Shown: positions 1 to 32,649 of the stretch, one piece after another
How the letters are laid out: each line of letters opens with the position of its first letter
Position numbering within the stretch: position 1 is the stretch's first letter
From: Candidatus Nanopelagicales bacterium
GTDB lineage: Bacteria > Actinomycetota > Actinomycetes > S36-B12 > GCA-2699445
NCBI GenBank assembly: GCA_030700225.1
Contig: JAUYJT010000059.1
Span: 1-32,649, forward strand
Length of the DNA stretch: 32,649 nt
Reading direction: 5' to 3'
Position numbers and translations under genes: made by a program
The notes under the pieces: generated by a model
The model's database searches: none
What the model was told of the DNA's origin: nothing
Seen by the model: the letters and a program-made list of their open reading frames with translations, nothing else

Positions 1-54
1 CAGCCCTGTTCGTCCACTGGCAACTAACCCCTATCCCCACACGCTGACCCGTGG

Positions 55-127
55 GAGCCGGATGACAGGAGACCGTCACGTCCGGTTCTGCGAGAGCCGG
101 GGGGTGCAACTCCCCCCGGCTACTCAC
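55..127 (+). mobile_element. Group II intron 3' end (domains V and VI)
   Basis: Positions 55-88 form a 34-nt domain V. The lower helix GAGCCGGA (55-62) pairs with TCCGGTTC (81-88), there is a two-base bulge before the upper helix, and a GAGA tetraloop of the GNRA type caps it. These are the hallmarks of the catalytic domain V of bacterial group II introns. Domain VI follows: GCCGGGGGG (96-104) pairs with CCCCCCGGC (112-120), then a TACTCAC end with a candidate branch-point A at 122. The 3' splice site is placed at about 127. The intron body and any reverse transcriptase lie upstream of the window, so completeness and activity cannot be judged. The 3' exon side is intergenic, about 70 bases past the stop of the convergent Rpf-like gene. 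Confidence 0.85.
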
Positions 128-198
128 CTTTGCATCATCTGACTGGCTTGAGCCGGAGCTCGCCGACCGATCACCCGCAATGAGCGAGGGATTCAGGC

Positions 199-660
199 TT
201 AGGCGCAACCCCAGGGGCCCCAGCCCGAACTCCGCCACAGCTTCCACGCGATGTGGTCCTGGGCGAACTTCGGAGCGCGGTGGGCGTTGGGGGCGTACCG
301 GCCGCCCCCGGCCCCGAGCCAAGTTCCAGTCAGGAACTGCCACGCGCCGTGGTAGGGGCCGTCGACAAGCTTGTAGTCCCCGTTCGATTCGCACTGCACC
401 ACAGAACGTGATTTCGCGGTCTTGGCCCACTTCCTGGACTTCTTGATCTGCCGAATCTCCTTGCGGGTCAGGTGGTGCTTCGCGATGCGGGAGCGCTTGA
501 CCGACGTCCGCGCGCTGCTGGCGTAGACGGACTCCTGTGCCTGGGCGCTGCTGGCGTACACCGCGTCGGAGGACTGGGCGGAGGCCAGGCTAAGTCCCGC
601 GGCCAACGTGGTGACACATAGGACGGCCGCGGCGGACATGGCGATTGGGCGTTTGCGCAT
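199..660 (-). CDS. Secreted Rpf/transglycosylase-like protein
   Basis: A 153-residue protein with a signal peptide (basic MRKR start, hydrophobic core about residues 8-25, ASA cleavage region), a short linker containing VYASSA twice (34-39 and 45-50), a basic segment at 52-84, and a C-terminal lysozyme-fold domain (about 86-153). That domain carries the CESNGDY motif with the likely catalytic Glu at 91, the GAWQF and TW segments, GGGRYAPNAHRAP, and a closing WGPWGCA that would disulphide-bond with Cys90. This is the resuscitation-promoting factor/transglycosylase pattern that cleaves peptidoglycan glycan strands outside the cell. It is transcribed away from the alaS operon. The upstream region has repeats but no riboswitch I can recognise. 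Family is secure; the exact physiological role (resuscitation or general wall remodelling) is inferred. Confidence 0.88.
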   Translation of the reverse strand: MRKRPIAMSAAAVLCVTTLAAGLSLASAQSSDAVYASSAQAQESVYASSARTSVKRSRIAKHHLTRKEIRQIKKSRKWAKTAKSRSVVQCESNGDYKLVDGPYHGAWQFLTGTWLGAGGGRYAPNAHRAPKFAQDHIAWKLWRSSGWGPWGCA

Positions 661-5548: not shown

Positions 5549-6348
5549 TGCGGGCGGCTGTCCTGGGCCATCCGATCGCCCACAGCCTGAGTCCGGTGCT
5601 CCACCGGGCTGCCTACGAAGCGCTGAGCCTTGACTGGCGTTACGACGCTATCGACGTTGACGAGCCTGGGCTGCCGGGCTTCATCGCCGCGTTGGACCCT
5701 TCGTGGGCCGGGCTGTCATTGACCATGCCGCTGAAGCGGGCCGTCGTGCCGTTGCTGGACGAGGCCTCGGAACTTGTCGACTCGCTCGGCTGCGCCAACA
5801 CCGTTGTGCTTCGGGAAGGTCGACGATCCGGGCACAACACGGATGTCGCCGGACTCGTGGCCGCCCTGGCGGAGTCGGGCGTCACGTCAGTGGCGAGTGT
5901 GGGGATTCTGGGAGCCGGGGCGACGGCGGGGTCGGCGCTCGCTGCCGCGGCCCGGTTGGAGTGCGAGTCGATCTCGGTCAGCGCGCGTCGGCCTGAATCT
6001 CTGGACGGGATGCGCCGTCTGGCCGTGCGTGTGGGGTGCGTCGCCGAGACCGTTGACTGGGAGCGGCGGGCGGAGGTTCTGGAGGCTGACGTAGTGATCT
6101 CGACGCTGCCGGGCGACGCGGCCGGGGCACTGGCGCCGCTGCTGCCCGCGCGCCTCGGCGTGCTGCTGGACGTGACGTATCACCCGTGGCCGACCACGTT
6201 GGCGTCTGCCTGGGGGCAGATGGGTGGCGTCGTGGTTTCCGGACACAGGTTTCTGTTGCACCAAGCTGCTGAGCAGGTGCGGCTGATGACGGGGTCGGAG
6301 CCGCCTATCGCCGCGATGGATGCCGCTCTGGGCCGGGTTTTGGCCTAG
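5545..6348 (+). CDS. aroE: Shikimate dehydrogenase
   Basis: A 267-residue protein reducing 3-dehydroshikimate to shikimate with NADPH. The N-terminal substrate domain has GHPIAHSLSPVLHRAAY, the LTMPLK motif with the catalytic Lys at 64, and GHNTDVAGL with the partner Asp at 100. The nucleotide-binding domain follows with GILGAGATAGSAL. The NADP-specificity loop reads SARRPE, and the C-terminal region ends with the HQAAEQVRLMTG segment typical of the family. The ATG at 5545 overlaps the mltG stop; a second in-frame ATG at 5548 is equally possible. This is the last gene of the alaS operon before the pilus locus. Confidence 0.96.
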   Translation: MMRAAVLGHPIAHSLSPVLHRAAYEALSLDWRYDAIDVDEPGLPGFIAALDPSWAGLSLTMPLKRAVVPLLDEASELVDSLGCANTVVLREGRRSGHNTDVAGLVAALAESGVTSVASVGILGAGATAGSALAAAARLECESISVSARRPESLDGMRRLAVRVGCVAETVDWERRAEVLEADVVISTLPGDAAGALAPLLPARLGVLLDVTYHPWPTTLASAWGQMGGVVVSGHRFLLHQAAEQVRLMTGSEPPIAAMDAALGRVLA

Positions 6349-6351
6349 CCG

Positions 6352-6366
6352 GGGGTTCCAAACCCC
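6352..6366 (+). terminator. Possible weak hairpin terminator after aroE
   Basis: GGGGTT (6352-6357) pairs with AACCCC (6361-6366) over a three-base loop, four bases after the aroE stop. No T-run follows, so this is only a candidate. The larger palindrome at 6392-6485 may serve the same purpose. Confidence 0.3.
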
Positions 6367-6391
6367 TGCGAGCTCAGGTTCAATGCCGCGC

Positions 6392-6485
6392 GATGATGCG
6401 AAACCTCTGATGATCATGCAACTCCGCGATCTGCCGGGAAGGGAAGATCGCTAATGAGCATGATCATCAGAGGTTTCGCATCATC
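6392..6485 (-). repeat. 94-bp palindromic repeat, copy A
   Basis: A perfect 28-bp inverted repeat: 6392-6419 (starting GATGATGCGAAACC) is exactly complementary to 6458-6485. The 38-base interior holds a second inverted repeat, GCGATCT (6426-6432) with AGATCGC (6445-6451). Read on the minus strand it aligns, over an equal 82-base length, with 32433-32514 after nusB (about 36 of 44 matches across the left arm and adjoining interior, aligned by hand). Both copies lie just past the end of a housekeeping gene. It is likely a dispersed intergenic palindromic or MITE-like element. There is no T-run, so terminator function is unproven. Confidence 0.85.
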
Positions 6486-6669
6486 CAGGTGAGTACTACA
6501 TCTAGGTCCGCACGGAAACCACTCGTGACCGGGCCCGGGGCGTCACTGCGCCGTGCCCGCGCGAAGCCGCCTTCAGGTTTTCGGCGCCATGTGCCGATAC
6601 CGGCGGAGGAGGACATGTGCGTCCGCCGGGCAGACATGTGTGCCTGGTGGGCAGGAAGGACAGGGCGGC
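6486..6669 (+). promoter_or_regulatory. Leader region upstream of pilB
   Basis: About 184 bases between the palindromic repeat and the pilB ATG must hold the pilB promoter unless transcription continues from aroE. The hexamer CATGTG appears three times (around 6589, 6613 and 6636), the last two preceded by GA and separated by about 22 bases, which could be binding half-sites. An upstream in-frame ATG at 6553 would extend PilB by 39 residues that do not resemble the family. No riboswitch was recognised. Confidence 0.3.
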
Positions 6670-8334
6670 ATGGCGGAGCTTGGCGAGATCCTGCTCGCCG
6701 CGGGTCTGATCGAACGCGAGCAGCTGAAGTGCGCGCTGGAGAAGCAACGCGCTTCTGGCGGGACGCTGGGCCAGATCCTCGTCGACGCGGGAGACTTGTC
6801 AGAGGGGCAGCTCGTCGCGCTGCTTGCCGCCGAGGGTGGGCTGCCATTCATGGATCTGGCCGATGTCACGGTTGACGGTTCGGCCATGGGAAGGGTCCCC
6901 GGCGTGGTTTGCCGCAAGCATCACGTCATCCCGGTCGCGATCGAGGACGGCGCTCTGGTCCTGGCCATGGCGGACCCCGCGGACGTAGTCGCCATCGACG
7001 ATGTCCGGGCACTGACCGGGATGGACGTCCGGATCGCCATCGCGACGCGCCGCGACGTCGACGCCGCCATCGACCGCCTCTACAGGGCTGACTCTGACCT
7101 GGATGACTTGACGACGGTGATGGATGTCGAGGAGCAACCCGAGGATCTGGCGGCACTGCGTCAGGTCATCGAAGACGCCCCGATCGTGAAGTTCGTCAAT
7201 CTCTTGATCACACAGGGCATCCAAGATGACGCCAGTGACATCCACCTGGAGCCCAACGAGCGCGATCTGTCGGTGCGCTTCCGCATTGATGGCGTCCTGC
7301 ATGAGGTGATGCGGTCTCCCCGAAGCATCCACGCGGGCGTGGTCAGCCGGCTGAAGATCATGGCGGACATGGACATCGCCGAACGGCGGGTGCCTCAGGA
7401 CGGCCGGTTGAGCGTGACGGCGCGTGGCAGGCAAGTTGACCTGCGGGTCGCGTCGCTGCCGACGGTGTGGGGCGAGAAGCTGGTGCTGCGAATACTGGAC
7501 AGCGGTACGAGCCGTCTGGACCTGTCCGACCTGGGGTTCAGTCCCAGCAACTACGACAAGTACTCGGAGTCGTTCTTCAAGCCCTACGGGATGATCATGG
7601 TCACCGGGCCGACCGGCTCAGGGAAGTCCACGACCCTCTACGCGACCTTGAACATCCTGAACCGCCCCGAGGTAAACATCATCACCGTCGAGGACCCTGT
7701 CGAGTACCGCTTGGCCGGGATCTCCCAGATCCAGACGCACCCCAAGGCCGGTCTTACCTTCGCTTCGGCCCTGCGCTCGATTCTGCGAGCTGACCCGGAC
7801 ATCGTGCTCATCGGTGAGGTTCGCGATCACGAGACAGCCCAGATCGCGGTCGAGGCGGCGCTGACGGGGCACTTGGTCCTGACGACTCTGCACACCAATG
7901 ACGCGCCGGGGTCGGTGAACCGGCTCATCGAGATGGGGATCGAGCCCTTCCTGGTGGGGTCGGCCCTGGACTGTGTGCTGGCTCAGCGGCTCGCGCGGCG
8001 GCTGTGCACGCACTGCCGCGAGGAGTTCAAGCCGACCCATGAGACGCTGACGGCCGCTCGATTCCCGTTGGCGGAGGGCGAGCCGGTGCCTGTGCTGTAC
8101 CGGGCCAAGGGTTGCTCCAAGTGCGCGAAGACCGGCTACAAAGGGCGCATCGCCCTGCATGAGGTCATGCGGGTCAGCGAAACGATCGAGCGGTTGACGG
8201 TAGAGCGGGCCACGACATCGGAAATCACAGAGGCCGCAAAGGCCGAGGGAATGCGGTCATTGCGCGATGATGGGATGCAGAAGGTCCTGGAAGGGGTCAC
8301 GAGTCTGGACGAGATCCTGCGGGTCGTGCTCTAA
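6670..8334 (+). CDS. pilB: Type IV pilus extension ATPase PilB
   Basis: A 554-residue GspE/PilB-type hexameric ATPase that powers pilin polymerisation from the cytoplasmic face of the membrane. The start is ATG 6670, preceded by AGGAAGGA, because the family domain begins at once. Residues 2-54 form a MshEN domain: two 24-residue motifs (ELGEILLAAG... and TLGQILVDAG...) separated by the five-residue RASGG. The motor domain has Walker A GPTGSGKST (313-321), the Asp box around EDPVEY, Walker B LRADPDIVLIGEVRD, and the His box HLVLTTLHTND. Four cysteines in two CxxC pairs (446/449 and 482/485) form the usual zinc site. It is followed by pilT and pilC. Confidence 0.97.
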   Translation: MAELGEILLAAGLIEREQLKCALEKQRASGGTLGQILVDAGDLSEGQLVALLAAEGGLPFMDLADVTVDGSAMGRVPGVVCRKHHVIPVAIEDGALVLAMADPADVVAIDDVRALTGMDVRIAIATRRDVDAAIDRLYRADSDLDDLTTVMDVEEQPEDLAALRQVIEDAPIVKFVNLLITQGIQDDASDIHLEPNERDLSVRFRIDGVLHEVMRSPRSIHAGVVSRLKIMADMDIAERRVPQDGRLSVTARGRQVDLRVASLPTVWGEKLVLRILDSGTSRLDLSDLGFSPSNYDKYSESFFKPYGMIMVTGPTGSGKSTTLYATLNILNRPEVNIITVEDPVEYRLAGISQIQTHPKAGLTFASALRSILRADPDIVLIGEVRDHETAQIAVEAALTGHLVLTTLHTNDAPGSVNRLIEMGIEPFLVGSALDCVLAQRLARRLCTHCREEFKPTHETLTAARFPLAEGEPVPVLYRAKGCSKCAKTGYKGRIALHEVMRVSETIERLTVERATTSEITEAAKAEGMRSLRDDGMQKVLEGVTSLDEILRVVL

Positions 8335-13296: not shown

Positions 13297-13509
13297 TTGG
13301 CCGAGGCCGAGATCGCAGGCATGATCAAGGAGCAGGCGGTAGAGCGAATGAGGTCGATCCGGACCGAGGTACGTGTCCATGGCACGAGCCCTCCCCCGCC
13401 TCGCGGGGGGACCCCCAGGCTTCAAGCCTCACGCTGGGGGTCCCCCCACGAAGTGGGGGGACCGGTCTCGACCCATGGACATGGACCCTGCGCCCGCTTT
13501 GTCCGTTAG
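13297..13509 (+). other. Possible gene remnant running into the repeat
   Basis: A 70-codon frame opening at TTG 13297. Its first 30 or so codons (AEAEIAGMIKEQAVERMRS...) look like real, high-GC3 coding sequence, and the same frame stays open further upstream on the other side of the TTG. After about 13375 it enters the inverted repeat and becomes proline/glycine-rich nonsense. It could be a gene truncated by the repeat, or an antisense artefact of the neighbouring membrane gene. No family recognised. Confidence 0.2.
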
Positions 13510-13592
13510 GTCCGGTTCCGCTCTGCGGATCTGCCCGCTACGGTCGCTAAAACTCGCGAATCCCGCCGGGTAACAACCAGAACGGGTCGATC
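13375..13592 (+). repeat. Dispersed repeat, copy R1 (left of copper gene)
   Basis: About 218 bp that recur in inverted orientation at 15025-15234. Shared blocks are GTCCATGG at the outer edge, GGCTTCAAGCCTCACGC (about 13418-13434), GTCTCGACCCATGGAC (13465-13480), GCTTTGTCC, GCGGATCTGCCCG, AATCCCGCCGGGTA and a closing GGGTCGATC. Over the inner 128 bases my hand alignment gives roughly 83% identity. R1 also contains a perfect 14-bp inverted repeat, 13405-13418 with 13434-13447. It ends 28 bases from the copper gene stop codon. Confidence 0.8.
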
Positions 13593-13619
13593 GCGCCAGG
13601 CAGGGCAGCGCGGCGGCGG

Positions 13620-15002
13620 CTACGGCCGGTTGATGGCGATGAACTCGCCGGGATACATGCCCATAACGCAGTTGAAGGAGTACACCCCCGGCTCCAGCGG
13701 CGCGATGTCGAACACGTTCACGCGGTCCCGCTCAAGATAGGTCGAAACGCCAAGGTCAGGGGCACGCAACGCCTCGGAGCACGTGAAGGGGGACTTGGCG
13801 TCGATGGCCCACTTCGTTGGCAGCCCCGAGTAGACGACGGACTGGGCGGGGACGTAGCCCCGTGACGTCTGGCTCATTCGCACGGTCTGGACCCCGTTAG
13901 CGACTGTGACGTTGTCCGAGATCTGGGCGGCGGCGACGGGCTCAGAGCTGGGCGTCGTCAGGCCCAGCGATCGCAGGCCGCCGACCATGCTCACCATGGC
14001 CATCCCGATCACCAGCACGCCGGTAACGCGCACAAACCCTTGGCTCTTCGTCGCCAGAGTGCCCAGCCCCCCGAGCGCCAGCAGACCCGGAGCGGTGCCG
14101 ACAGCGAAAGCCCCCATGATCGCGCCGGACATCAGTGGGCTACCCGTGGCCAGGGCGTAGACCTGGACTGACTGGGTGATTCCGCAAGGCAGTATGAACG
14201 TGGCCGCGCCCAGCCCGGCTGCCCGCCAGTGCCCGGAGCCGCGCGGTTTGGTCTGGCCGGTGAGGAAGTGGGAGAACCTCCCAGGCAGAGTCGGGCTCCA
14301 ACCCGCGAGCCGGGGAGACAGCCCGGTGAGCCGAAGTCCGAGCAACGTCATCACCAGCGCCACGGCTATCACCAGAACGGCCAGCGCCACCGGCGGTAGT
14401 GAGAACGCCGAGCCAACCGCGCCGAGCGCCGCGCCGAGGACCGCGAATCCGGCGATGCGCCCCGCCTGGAACGCCAACTGGGGGGCAAGCCTTTGCGTCG
14501 CGGTCGCGGCCGGGTGGGATCTGGCGTATTGCGCGGAAACGGCCAGGATCAGCCCGCCGACCAGCGCCATGCATGTGGACACGCCCGCGGCCAGTCCGAC
14601 CAGGACCATCACCGCAACGACTGCGAGCTTCTCAGCGTCCGCGCCGACGCTGCCCGCCGACAGGTCGACCCTTAGGACCAGCAGTACCAGGATCCAGACC
14701 GCGACCGCCGCTACGGCGACCGTAAGCCAGGCTCGTGGGTCCCGAAGCACCCAAGCCGGACGCCCGAGGTGGTAGCCCGCCTTGCGGACCGCGCGCTCCA
14801 ATGCCTCACGTTGGGGAGGGGGACTGCCGGAGACCCTGGCTTGCCCGCGAGTCGCTGAGACCGACACGTCAGTGACGCCGGGAACCTTCGACAGTGCCCT
14901 GCCCACCCGCTTCTCGCACGCGGCGCAAGTCATGCCGGTGACGGGAAGTTCCACGGTCACCGTCGCGACACCGTGGCCACGGCCCTCTGCCTGTTTCGTC
15001 AT
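13620..15002 (-). CDS. HMA-CcdA-like-cupredoxin copper handling protein
   Basis: A 460-residue three-part protein. Residues about 14-75 are a heavy-metal-associated domain with GMTCAACEKRVG (Cys26 and Cys29 as metal ligands). About 90-345 is a polytopic membrane region of six or more helices of the DsbD/CcdA-like type (often annotated as TauE/SafE or UreH-like), with a Cys in ATFILPCGITQSVQ and another in VSTCMALVGGL. The last 95 residues form a secreted cupredoxin-like domain; TCSEALRAP and the final FNCVMGMYPGEF supply Cys/Met residues suited to copper. Such fusions occur near copper-efflux genes, so metal transfer across the membrane is likely but direction is unknown. ATG 15002. The gene is boxed by inverted repeats R1 and R2. 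Confidence 0.85.
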   Translation of the reverse strand: MTKQAEGRGHGVATVTVELPVTGMTCAACEKRVGRALSKVPGVTDVSVSATRGQARVSGSPPPQREALERAVRKAGYHLGRPAWVLRDPRAWLTVAVAAVAVWILVLLVLRVDLSAGSVGADAEKLAVVAVMVLVGLAAGVSTCMALVGGLILAVSAQYARSHPAATATQRLAPQLAFQAGRIAGFAVLGAALGAVGSAFSLPPVALAVLVIAVALVMTLLGLRLTGLSPRLAGWSPTLPGRFSHFLTGQTKPRGSGHWRAAGLGAATFILPCGITQSVQVYALATGSPLMSGAIMGAFAVGTAPGLLALGGLGTLATKSQGFVRVTGVLVIGMAMVSMVGGLRSLGLTTPSSEPVAAAQISDNVTVANGVQTVRMSQTSRGYVPAQSVVYSGLPTKWAIDAKSPFTCSEALRAPDLGVSTYLERDRVNVFDIAPLEPGVYSFNCVMGMYPGEFIAINRP

Positions 15003-15024
15003 CGATCAGCTCCCTCGCCCCAGT

Positions 15025-15234
15025 GATCGACCCGATATGGTCGCTACCCGGCGGGATTTGCGAGTCTTAGCAACCATATCGGGCAGATCCGCGCGCCCAA
15101 TCGGACACACTGGACAAAGCTGGCGCGGGGTCCGGGTCCATGGGTCGAGACGAGCGGCGTGCGACGGGATCCGTGTCACGGGGGGTTTGGATCGAGCGGC
15201 GTGAGGCTTGAAGCCGCGGGCTCGGCCCATGGAC
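15025..15234 (-). repeat. Dispersed repeat, copy R2 (right of copper gene)
   Basis: The inverted partner of the 13375-13592 repeat, starting 23 bases upstream of the copper gene start codon. Its inner end has its own inverted repeat: CCGATATGGTCGCTA (about 15032-15046) against TAGCAACCATATCGG (about 15068-15082), one mismatch. R1 preserves the layout, but its arms pair less well. The outer half carries CACGCCGCTCG twice on the minus strand. Being so close to the start codon, R2 probably contains or abuts the copper gene promoter. Confidence 0.8.
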
Positions 15235-15258
15235 CCCGACCCCGAACCGGACCGGGCC

Positions 15259-20585: not shown

Positions 20586-22027
20586 TTGCTATGCGCTTTT
20601 TCTCACCCAGAGATGAGCGGGGGGTCGGGTTGATTCTCGTCGTAGGCATGACGGCCATGGTGTTGGTGCTGGTTGCTAGTGCGCTGATCCTGGCCCAGAG
20701 CGCACTTGAAAGGTCGCGGCACAGGTCCGACTTTGAGCTTTCGCTGGCCACAGCGGAGGACGGCATCGACACGACTCTGGCCAGACTGCAGGTGACCTAC
20801 GACAATGACAACGAGGACTTCCCGATCCCTGGGACGCAGTCGGGGACGACGTGCAGCCTGACTCAAGTGGAGCAGGAGTCGTTCGACACGGAAGCCGCCG
20901 AGAACACCTGGGCGCGGGCCGAGATCGCGGCGTTGGAAGAACAGGGGTGCATCCAAACCACTGATACGGGCCAGTACGTCGTGTTCAAGCCGGCTAGCGC
21001 CGCTTCCAGCCTCGGACGCGTCTACTCGCTTGGATGGTCCCCGAGCATCGACAGCCCGACCGCGGTCAGCCGCTTGGTGAAGGTGGAGTACCAGTTCTTG
21101 CCGTATTCGCCCACCCTCGCGGTTCTGACGCAAGGCAATCTCGAAATTGACTCCAGCGCCACCGTAACCACGGCAGGCGGCGCCGACCCGAGCCTGGCGG
21201 GCGCGCACGCCAACGGTCAGATCACGACTACGGGGAACCCGATCGTGGAGGGACTAGTCACAAGCACGGGCTCCTCTACGGCAACAAGCAACAACTTCAA
21301 CTCCAACCCAGGCGGCACTGTTCCACAGGCACCACGAGTCACCGTGCCGAGGATCAGCGCCCTGTCGTTCTACAAGCACGCCCGGGACCTTGACCCGGAC
21401 GCGACGGCGGAGGGGTCGTGGTACGACTTGTGCCCGGATGGCAGTGTGCGGCCCTATTCCGTCAACGGTCCGTGCGACGCGGCGACGTCCACATACTCAG
21501 GGGCGTGGGTACCCGAGTTCGACGCGGATGATCACATGTGGACAATTAGTAGCAACGCGAGGTCGGGGACGTACTTCGCCTTCGAGGCAGACGTCGAGCC
21601 GGGTGTGGGCAATGGCAGCTTCGACAACCTGACCGTAGTGGCATCAGCCGCGAACCCGAACAACTGCGCAACGAAGACCTACGGCAACATCACGTGGGAC
21701 CACTACGACATAGATTCGGCAGCATTCACCAACACCTTCATGTTCGCGGACTCTGACCTTCTGATCACGTCGAACTTCACCGCCGGCTCCAGCACAGGCA
21801 CGGGTGCGGACAGCGGGATGCTCGTGGCGGGGGATCAGATCGAGCTGGAGACGTCGAGCAACGTTGTGGTCGGAGCTGTGGTGGCGGCGGATCAGTGCGA
21901 CACCTCGGACCTCGTGGACTCGAACGTGATCAAGAACGTGACGATCAGGTTCGCCCCCACGGCGAAGTCGCCGTTCGCCAGCATCATCAACCAGAACCTG
22001 TGGCTTGAGTTCCCGGGGGCCGGGTGA
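20582..22027 (+). CDS. PilX/GspK-like minor pilin component
   Basis: A 481-residue protein. The short basic leader ends at Gly14 and the hydrophobic helix VGLILVVGMTAMVLVLVASALIL follows. No glutamate lies at +5, which also holds for GspK-type tip subunits. The outer part is large (about 440 residues), Ser/Thr/Gly-rich with many cysteines, for example LCPDG, NGPCDA, NNCATKT and ADQCDTS. It is related to the PilX N-terminal family in character, though I cannot confirm a domain by eye. The start is GTG 20582, overlapping the previous stop, with ATG 20591 as the alternative. Its final 38 bases are duplicated at 23112. Confidence 0.8.
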   Translation: MIAMRFFSPRDERGVGLILVVGMTAMVLVLVASALILAQSALERSRHRSDFELSLATAEDGIDTTLARLQVTYDNDNEDFPIPGTQSGTTCSLTQVEQESFDTEAAENTWARAEIAALEEQGCIQTTDTGQYVVFKPASAASSLGRVYSLGWSPSIDSPTAVSRLVKVEYQFLPYSPTLAVLTQGNLEIDSSATVTTAGGADPSLAGAHANGQITTTGNPIVEGLVTSTGSSTATSNNFNSNPGGTVPQAPRVTVPRISALSFYKHARDLDPDATAEGSWYDLCPDGSVRPYSVNGPCDAATSTYSGAWVPEFDADDHMWTISSNARSGTYFAFEADVEPGVGNGSFDNLTVVASAANPNNCATKTYGNITWDHYDIDSAAFTNTFMFADSDLLITSNFTAGSSTGTGADSGMLVAGDQIELETSSNVVVGAVVAADQCDTSDLVDSNVIKNVTIRFAPTAKSPFASIINQNLWLEFPGAG

Positions 22028-22060
22028 CCGCGCTGCTCGTCAGCGCCTGCGCGGTGCTGG
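21990..22060 (+). repeat. 71-bp direct repeat, left copy
   Basis: Positions 21990-22060 match 23112-23182 at 70 of 71 bases (C at 22052, G at 23174). This copy holds the last 38 bases of the PilX-like gene and the first 37 bases of a pilD reading frame (sharing the overlap), which then runs into unrelated sequence at 22061. It marks the left edge of the inserted toxin-antitoxin cassette. Confidence 0.95.
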
Positions 22061-22161: not shown

Positions 22162-22632
22162 ATGACTGCCAGAACGTTCCAGGCTACTGACCTCGCGCGG
22201 GACCATCGCACGGTCCTGGACCAGGCCCGTGAGAGCGAGGCGCTGATCCGAGACAAGGGTGGAACCACGCTCGCGATAGTCCTACTGGACGAACTTCGTG
22301 CGACTCGGGAGGTTTCCCGCTTGGCCCTTGAGCTGCTCCGGATCGAGGCGCTGCCCCAGTCAAGACGAGTCCCTACCTACCTCGGGGACTTGGCCTGGCT
22401 GACGTACCTGGACGAAGAGGAGTACGAGGAATTCGTCCAGGAGTTCCGCGACGCACTGTTCCTGGCGGCCAGTACCCACCACACGCAGATAGTGGACCAG
22501 CTCCTGTACTCCTGGAGAGCGACGGCCGAGATCAACTCCGATCCTGAACTGAGCTACCAGTTGCTCCACTCGGTAGACGACTACGACGACGAGGTCGGAC
22601 TGCTTCCTCTAAACCCAGAGATCGACGGCTAG
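22162..22632 (+). CDS. Antitoxin, probable Phd/YefM-like
   Basis: A 156-residue protein. The first 45 residues (TFQATDLARDHRTVLDQARES...IRDKGGTTLAIV) resemble the Phd/YefM fold, which begins with a 'do not integrate, set a default' type strand-helix and ends in a V-strand. The remaining two thirds are unusual: a long helical, acidic stretch (YLDEEEYEEFVQEFRDALF), and an Asp/Glu-rich C-terminus (SVDDYDDEVGLLP). Ordinary Phd proteins are nearer 75-90 residues, so this one has a fused extension, perhaps the toxin-binding part. The stop is four bases before the toxin GTG, the standard antitoxin-first order. Assignment rests on size, order and the N-terminal match. Confidence 0.65.
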   Translation: MTARTFQATDLARDHRTVLDQARESEALIRDKGGTTLAIVLLDELRATREVSRLALELLRIEALPQSRRVPTYLGDLAWLTYLDEEEYEEFVQEFRDALFLAASTHHTQIVDQLLYSWRATAEINSDPELSYQLLHSVDDYDDEVGLLPLNPEIDG

Positions 22633-22636
22633 AACG

Positions 22637-22996
22637 GTGGCACCCAGGAGGAAGCGTGCCTCCTCTCCCCGGAAGCCTCGTGTGAAGGACGACCAGTGGC
22701 GTATCCGGTTCGTCAGTTCCCGCGCCCTGAAGGAGTGGAACGCAGCCAAGGACCGGGAACCAGGGATCATGGAGTCCGTAGAACAACTCCTGCGTCACAA
22801 TCCCAGAGATCGCTCGGTGAACTCCCGGCGTCTTGGGCCTCTGGCTCATAGGACAATCTCGTTCCATGGCAAGCGATTCAAGATCTGGCAGTACGAGATG
22901 ACGTCGGGAGGAAGGATCTGGTACCTCGTGGATGATGACACGATCGTCGTCATCGTCACCAGTGTGTCCCTGTCGCACCCTCGGAAGACAGACTGA
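22637..22996 (+). CDS. Toxin, probable RelE/ParE superfamily
   Basis: A 119-residue basic protein. After a positively charged tail (PRRKRASSPRKPRVK) it reads RIRFVSSRALKEWNAAK, a helical middle (GIMESVEQLLRHNPRDRSVNSRRLGPL), and a beta-sheet end with FHGKRFKIWQYEMTSGGRIWYLVDDDTIVVIVTSVSLSH. The helix-then-strand order and the closing R-x-WY...D...I-V-V-I strands match the RelE/ParE toxin fold. Members cut mRNA on the ribosome or inhibit gyrase; the catalytic type cannot be settled by eye. GTG 22637 follows the antitoxin stop by four bases and has only a weak ribosome-binding site, so translational coupling is likely. Confidence 0.65.
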   Translation: MAPRRKRASSPRKPRVKDDQWRIRFVSSRALKEWNAAKDREPGIMESVEQLLRHNPRDRSVNSRRLGPLAHRTISFHGKRFKIWQYEMTSGGRIWYLVDDDTIVVIVTSVSLSHPRKTD

Positions 22997-23111
22997 CCTT
23001 TGCCTCAGTTCGCTAGAAGGTGATTGGAGTTGGTTCTCACGGAAACAGTCTGGGTGGGTCCCGGGGTCGTAGGCCAACGGCGTCCGGAACTTGTAGCCCT
23101 ATTCGTCCTCG

Positions 23112-23182
23112 ACCAGAACCTGTGGCTTGAGTTCCCGGGGGCCGGGTGACCGCGCTGCTCGTCAGCGCCTGCGGGGTGCTGG
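23112..23182 (+). repeat. 71-bp direct repeat, right copy
   Basis: The second copy of 21990-22060, one base different. It carries a 38-base relic of the PilX-like gene end followed in frame by the genuine pilD start (GTG 23146). Bases upstream of 23112 show no similarity to the real PilX-like gene, so the duplication is sharply bounded on this side. Confidence 0.95.
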
Positions 23183-32405: not shown

Positions 32406-32432
32406 CGCCAAGGGGCCGAGCCTCGGGGTCCT

Positions 32433-32514
32433 GCTGATGCAAATCCTCTGTTGATCAAGCTCGTTCGTGATCTTCCACGCCTGCGGGGCCGTCGCCTTCC
32501 TTGATCAACAGAGG
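32433..32514 (+). repeat. Palindromic repeat, copy B, after nusB
   Basis: CCTCTGTTGATCAAG (32445-32459) is the exact reverse complement of CTTGATCAACAGAGG (32500-32514). The element aligns with the minus strand of 6392-6485 over an equal 82-base length. The two copies differ at paired arm positions (A-T versus T-A on both sides), so the ability to pair is kept. About 135 bases remain to the window end without a recognisable gene. Confidence 0.8.
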
Positions 32515-32649
32515 AGTGTGTCCTGAAAGGCGAGTGGTTGCGATGTAGGAGGTCGTGATTGTGGACCGTGCTGTGTTGGTGATGGAGGTAGGTCCTCCGG
32601 GCTCGCTGTGCAGGCAGAGGGCTCAAACCGCCGTGGTGTCATGTCGGTC

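Follow-up and report, generated by a model that had tools for sequence, protein, structure and literature searches.

The window analysed, 32,649 nucleotides in length, comprises the whole of contig C59, one of 85 contigs in a 2.6-Mb genome assembly (95.7% complete). The parts of it that belong to the palindromic repeat and to a group II intron are as follows.

1..128, plus strand: 3' end of an intron copy different from that at 32516 (end of the RT gene, domains V and VI), the intron being cut by the contig start; Rfam RF00029 at 53-128
129..201, plus strand: 3' remainder of a third element (long form), comprising the arm rest TTTGCATCATC, the right flank and the terminal repeat GGGATTCAGGCTTA at 188-201
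6392..6485, minus strand (family consensus orientation): intact, empty 94-bp palindrome with arms at 6392-6418 and 6459-6485; 101 bits with the covariance model
32433..32515, plus strand: 5' part of a second 94-bp palindrome, the end of the right arm being missing; interrupted by the intron after CAGAGGA
32444..32457, minus strand: the other probable homing site half of the 32433 palindrome, unoccupied; sequence match
32502..32515, plus strand: probable homing site half TGATCAACAGAGGA (IBS2 and IBS1), immediately 5' of the intron; sequence match
32516..32649, plus strand: 5' end of the group II intron (GTGTGTCC..., domain I), the intron being cut by the contig end; Rfam RF01999 at 32584-32637

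The intron 5' end at 32516 has identical counterparts in five further contigs, and the intron 3' end at window base 128 is the same as that in C19, C61 and C62. Contig C59 starts and ends within repeated group II introns, where the assembly broke. The bracketing of the pilus-containing interval by the two palindromes, pointed out in the initial annotation, has no meaning in itself, since the window is a whole contig ending in repeated introns at both sides.

Further repeats were observed in the window. A two-gene module resembling a toxin-antitoxin pair (22162-22996) has on both sides a 77-nt direct repeat (21984-22060 and 23106-23182, 96% alike), a duplication of a gene boundary within the pilus cluster. 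The gene at 13620-15002, encoding a membrane protein with an N-terminal metal-binding-like domain, is located between long inverted repeats (window 13368-15244; 68 nt 87% and 53 nt 83% complementary) that resemble the ends of a cargo-carrying element. A distinct palindromic repeat (CCCCCACTTCGTGGGGG with GGGGGTCCCC) was found at 13393-13459 and also near the copies C70, C4b and C23a of the family studied here (stretches L065, L054).

The palindromic repeat family

The coordinates and the near-perfect palindromy of the element at 6392-6485 held as first described, with a predicted RNA fold for 6385-6492 of -70 kcal/mol (z -11.4 against shuffles), and the fold for 32425-32525 was predicted at -41.7 kcal/mol (z -3.7). 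The alignment of the two palindromes in opposite orientations was reproduced, but the second one, previously taken for an 82-bp variant, is a 94-bp element by origin, of which the first 83 bases are kept at 32433-32515; in place of the remaining right-arm bases, a group II intron begins at 32516 with GTGTGTCCTGAAAGG.... The change from ATGATCAT to TTGATCAA between the two window copies, together with its matching change in the opposite arm, was likewise recovered, being mirrored in both arms.

A genome-wide search for the pattern CCTCTGNTGATCANG gave 24 occurrences, and one for its reversed control gave none; where both arms are exact, their starts are 55 nt apart in every case. With BLAST and with a covariance model derived from 21 copies, at least 22 copies were detected in the 2.6-Mb genome and none in 147 relatives, seven of them of the same family (148 genomes searched including the host), so the dispersed palindromic repeat family expected from the two window copies was found, in the host genome only. 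Long-form BLAST matches in nine relatives (E 8e-4 to 9e-3, 22-42 nt) were weak and taken as chance. Searches of plasmids and, with one stringent pattern, of viral contigs also yielded no copy of the repeat. At the gathering threshold, Rfam placed no described family over the palindromes.

In about half of the copies only the 94-bp core is present, with sharp ends at the 94-bp limits; the cores of these copies are 59-80% identical in pairwise comparison and their flanks are at background (29-30%). The remaining copies represent a long form of about 200 bp, in which the flanks beside the core are 58-64% alike and extend to the terminal inverted repeats AGCCTGAATCCA/TGGATTCAGGCT, adjoined by TA in most long copies and not in the core-only ones. 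The interior of the core-only copies is, in its left half, as conserved as the left arm, and by eye no direct target duplications were recognised around these copies.

Gene positions were taken from a codon-usage gene caller, and most neighbours were checked with Pfam. Every one of the 22 copies lies between genes, and 21 face at least one gene 3' end. Both neighbours are available for 17 copies, which lie in 5 convergent, 11 tandem and 1 divergent gaps, respectively, and each of the 5 copies at contig ends follows a gene 3' end. In the tandem gaps the copies are nearer to the upstream stop than expected by chance (p = 0.024 overall, p = 0.007 for the core-only copies). The description of the palindromes as sitting just past operon ends therefore holds broadly for the family, but does not fit one core-only copy between rplO and secY; a strong terminator role would be costly there and is therefore disfavoured.

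In the alignment of 21 copies, 86.6% of the cells are paired, and 11 pairs carry a two-sided change as compared with 7.7 +/- 1.5 in shuffles, 13 of 500 of which reach 11; slid controls gave far lower values. The mirrored changes are found mostly at one position (columns 20/77: AU 5, CG 4, UA 4, unpaired 8), which is the N of TGATCANCAGAGG. Columns 27/70 are mismatched in 15 of the 21 copies, and almost half of the arm pairs are invariant and uninformative either way. The covariation across the 21 copies is modest. The mirrored changes lend some support to the maintenance of a folded form, and hairpin-templated correction of quasi-palindromes would account for them equally well. Because such correction gives an identical signature, selection on the folded form, which the initial annotation had read, with copying as the other option, from these substitutions, is not established, while the paired substitutions that keep the stem are above the shuffles.

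Two other origins were considered for a repeat of this kind. The palindromes might be a MITE belonging to an IS630/Tc1-like, TA-inserting DNA transposon; the long form would then be the mobile one and the core-only copies its decayed remains. The TA adjoining the terminal repeats of most long copies would suit this origin, but the TA may merely belong to the terminal repeat, a DDE_3 search of the assembly for an autonomous IS630 partner gave no match, and conserved cores with flanks at background in the core-only copies are unlike plain decay; such an origin is possible but rather doubtful. It is far less probable that the copies form a REP/BIME-like family moved by a RAYT (REP-associated tyrosine transposase). 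They resemble REP/BIME and RAYT systems in being palindromic, intergenic, lineage-restricted and present in about 20 copies, but 94 bp with 27-bp arms exceeds the 21-65 bases of typical REPs (PMC1525189), and no RAYT transposase was found in the genome (assembly 95.7% complete). The REP-associated TnpA-like transposase for which the initial annotation had suggested a search has as its sole Y1 transposase match a truncated IS200/IS605 TnpA beside TnpB. This IS200/IS605-type element is located at C48:14000-20000, its TnpA matching only the last 40% of the Y1 profile. The palindromes in all probability represent a non-autonomous 94-bp repeat specific to this lineage, which in part of the copies lies within the longer form of about 200 bp, and the repeat itself would have been mobile.

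The group II intron and its probable target

The intron, with the repeat as its homing site, escaped the initial annotation. With intron ends counted within three mismatches of the probes, six 5' and four 3' ends are present in the assembly, and nine of the ten junctions fall at one shared position of the palindrome arm (5' ends 5/6, 3' ends 4/4). Five 5' ends come directly after CAGAGGA in a palindrome, and after each of the four 3' ends the arm continues with its remainder, TTYGCATCAYC. GTGTG is the start at every 5' junction, in agreement with the GUGYG of group II introns, and the base preceding the 3' exon (CACC/TTT) makes that junction uncertain by 1 nt. The ribozyme parts matched RF01999 with 84.8 bits and RF00029 with 61.2 bits, respectively. 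The occupied sites are split by contig breaks inside the introns; an RT-deleted copy in C5 is the only one assembled in one piece. The 5' end of C59b would belong with the 3' end in C62, and that of C60b with the one in C61. This short copy (C5:12400-15600) provides the sixth 5' end (C5:12666), preceded by the 5' exon GATAGGGGA, which is not a palindrome arm; it has a diverged domain V and 3' end, followed by an element arm on the 3' side.

The intron RT is encoded at C19:64-1392 (442 aa; TIGR04416 394 bits) and possesses RVT_1 and GIIM domains; a profile search gave no HNH endonuclease match, and the nearest solved relative is the GsI-IIC RT. It is absent at E <= 1e-60 from the other genomes among the 148, and relatives with 64-68% identity are present in other actinobacterial MAGs. 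The domain V motif GAGCCG...CGGTTC fits RF00029, and a domain V starting with GAGCC is what we take, from the motif and established class knowledge, to be the IIA/IIB type and not IIC. With its ribozyme parts, an RT/maturase and EBS-IBS pairing, the element can be regarded by sequence as a mobile group II intron, and the identical 5' ends in multiple copies suggest that it has moved recently. Related introns occupy tRNA T-arms, the YADD region of other reverse transcriptases and other coding sequence, and several of them share one site within a genome (for example L131, L132 and L135 in tRNA genes).

EBS1 (UCCUCU) was assigned to the loop of CCAGGG-TCGTCCTCTAA-TCCTGG in domain I, at intron position 267, where it pairs with AGAGGA, and EBS2 (AUGAUC; ATGATC in DNA) to intron position 236, where it pairs with GATCAT; together they are complementary to the arm sequence GATCANCAGAGGA preceding T. 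Among 12 related introns, the homologous EBS1 loops fit their own 5' exons with a score of 138 against 85 +/- 7.5, a value reached by 0 of 20,000 permutations, and the EBS2 loops with a score of 107 against 84 +/- 6 (p = 0.0008). Both assignments are thus supported by covariation across the related introns. The sequence TGATCANCAGAGGA occurs exactly 21 times in the genome, always in palindromes (21/21), and with one mismatch at most 32 of its 34 occurrences are in palindromes. The empty copy at 6392-6485 has CAGAGGT instead of CAGAGGA in both arms, a mismatch at position -1.

It may be asked whether the palindromes are host terminators or 3'-end stabilisers under selection, behind which the intron inserts as class IIC introns do, after terminators or at attC sites (PMC4424553). 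The orientation of 21 of the 22 copies towards a gene 3' end, their closeness to the upstream stop in tandem gaps, the great stability of the hairpins and the excess of mirrored changes over shuffles would all suit such a role, and the intron resembles class IIC in lying directly 3' of an inverted repeat, in the endonuclease-less RT and in the GsI-IIC RT as the nearest solved one. The absence of an endonuclease, a class IIC feature that the intron displays, is not specific to that class, being common to classes D, E and F (PMC4424553). The scan for T-tract terminators over 5900-7000 found none around 6392-6485, one copy is located between rplO and secY, and the family is absent from all relatives searched. 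Unlike class IIC introns, moreover, the intron has GAGCC in domain V as in IIA/IIB, pairs with its target through EBS2 as well as EBS1, inserts inside a longer stem of 27 bp, and has relatives that use sequence-specific sites in tRNA genes and coding sequence, with no hairpin rule and not after terminators. A class IIC intron behind terminator hairpins was ruled out by the domain V type, the EBS2-IBS2 covariation (p = 0.0008) and the sites of the relatives, and the terminator or stabiliser role as a whole is improbable. On the evidence of the repeat family, the common junctions, the EBS-IBS covariation, the confinement of the exact sites to the repeats, the two insertion orientations and one doubly hit element (both described below), all taken from sequence, the arms of the non-autonomous, lineage-specific repeat very probably serve a mobile group II intron, whose RT lacks an endonuclease, as its homing site. 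Against this reading count the occupied sites split between contigs, the 1-nt uncertainty at the 3' junction, and the negative outcome of the searches for a transposase able to move the repeat and for target duplications around core-only copies.

Probable homing into both arms

The intron RNA would pair via EBS2 and EBS1 with GATCANCAGAGGA in an arm, reverse-splice between the terminal A of that sequence and the following T, and be copied into DNA, the intron thereby coming to lie in the hairpin's 3' arm. Owing to the palindromy of the repeat, each copy would offer one homing site on each strand. The intron has the same orientation as the interior of the repeat in C4b, C54, C28 and C59b and the opposite one in C60b, and the flank after the intron 3' end in C61 also indicates the opposite orientation. 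The element at C54:4530 lacks its core; between its outer flanks lie two intron 3' ends pointing outward, an arrangement to be expected had both arms been hit and the middle deleted afterwards, in that probable order. All five palindrome 5' junctions, even that of the reversed-repeat C60b, are sense to the upstream gene, which fits insertion at the lagging-strand template for genes that run with the fork; C60b is a weaker case, since its gene gave no Pfam match.

Among the closest known arrangements is that of the endonuclease-less intron RmInt1 (group IIB3, class D) of Sinorhizobium meliloti; it reaches ISRm2011-2 by homing via EBS/IBS pairing and prefers the lagging-strand template (PMC8914252). 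The two introns have in common an endonuclease-less RT, the selection of the target by EBS1/EBS2 pairing with the 5' exon, and a multi-copy mobile repeat as the homing site, the class D label being that of RmInt1, to which the present intron is likened by the absence of an endonuclease and not by RT class. RmInt1 targets an insertion sequence, whereas the present target is short, non-coding and palindromic, with one site per strand. REPs are common targets of IS elements, and the table consulted in PMC1525189 lists 2 of 9 group II introns of Pseudomonas putida KT2440 at REPs; in both cases a dispersed palindrome is an insertion target of mobile elements. In the part of that source consulted, the association of introns with REPs is partial and no pairing is described, whereas here 9 of 10 junctions and all exact homing sites are in the repeat. 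The present case is a variant in which the arms of a lineage-specific palindrome are the homing site of the intron on both strands.

Retrohoming would be the likely route, presumably with priming at the replication fork. More tentatively, the palindrome could act as a two-sided landing pad, so that either strand exposed at the fork would be usable, whatever the orientation of the repeat.

The arrangement of intron and repeat accounts for the end points of many contigs in the assembly and gives an anonymous palindromic repeat of a bacterium a concrete molecular user, resolved to the base pair. Should this be confirmed, group II introns would have in palindromic repeats a natural multi-copy reservoir of homing sites that is independent of strand, and the strand choice of endonuclease-less introns at the replication fork could be tested with this system.
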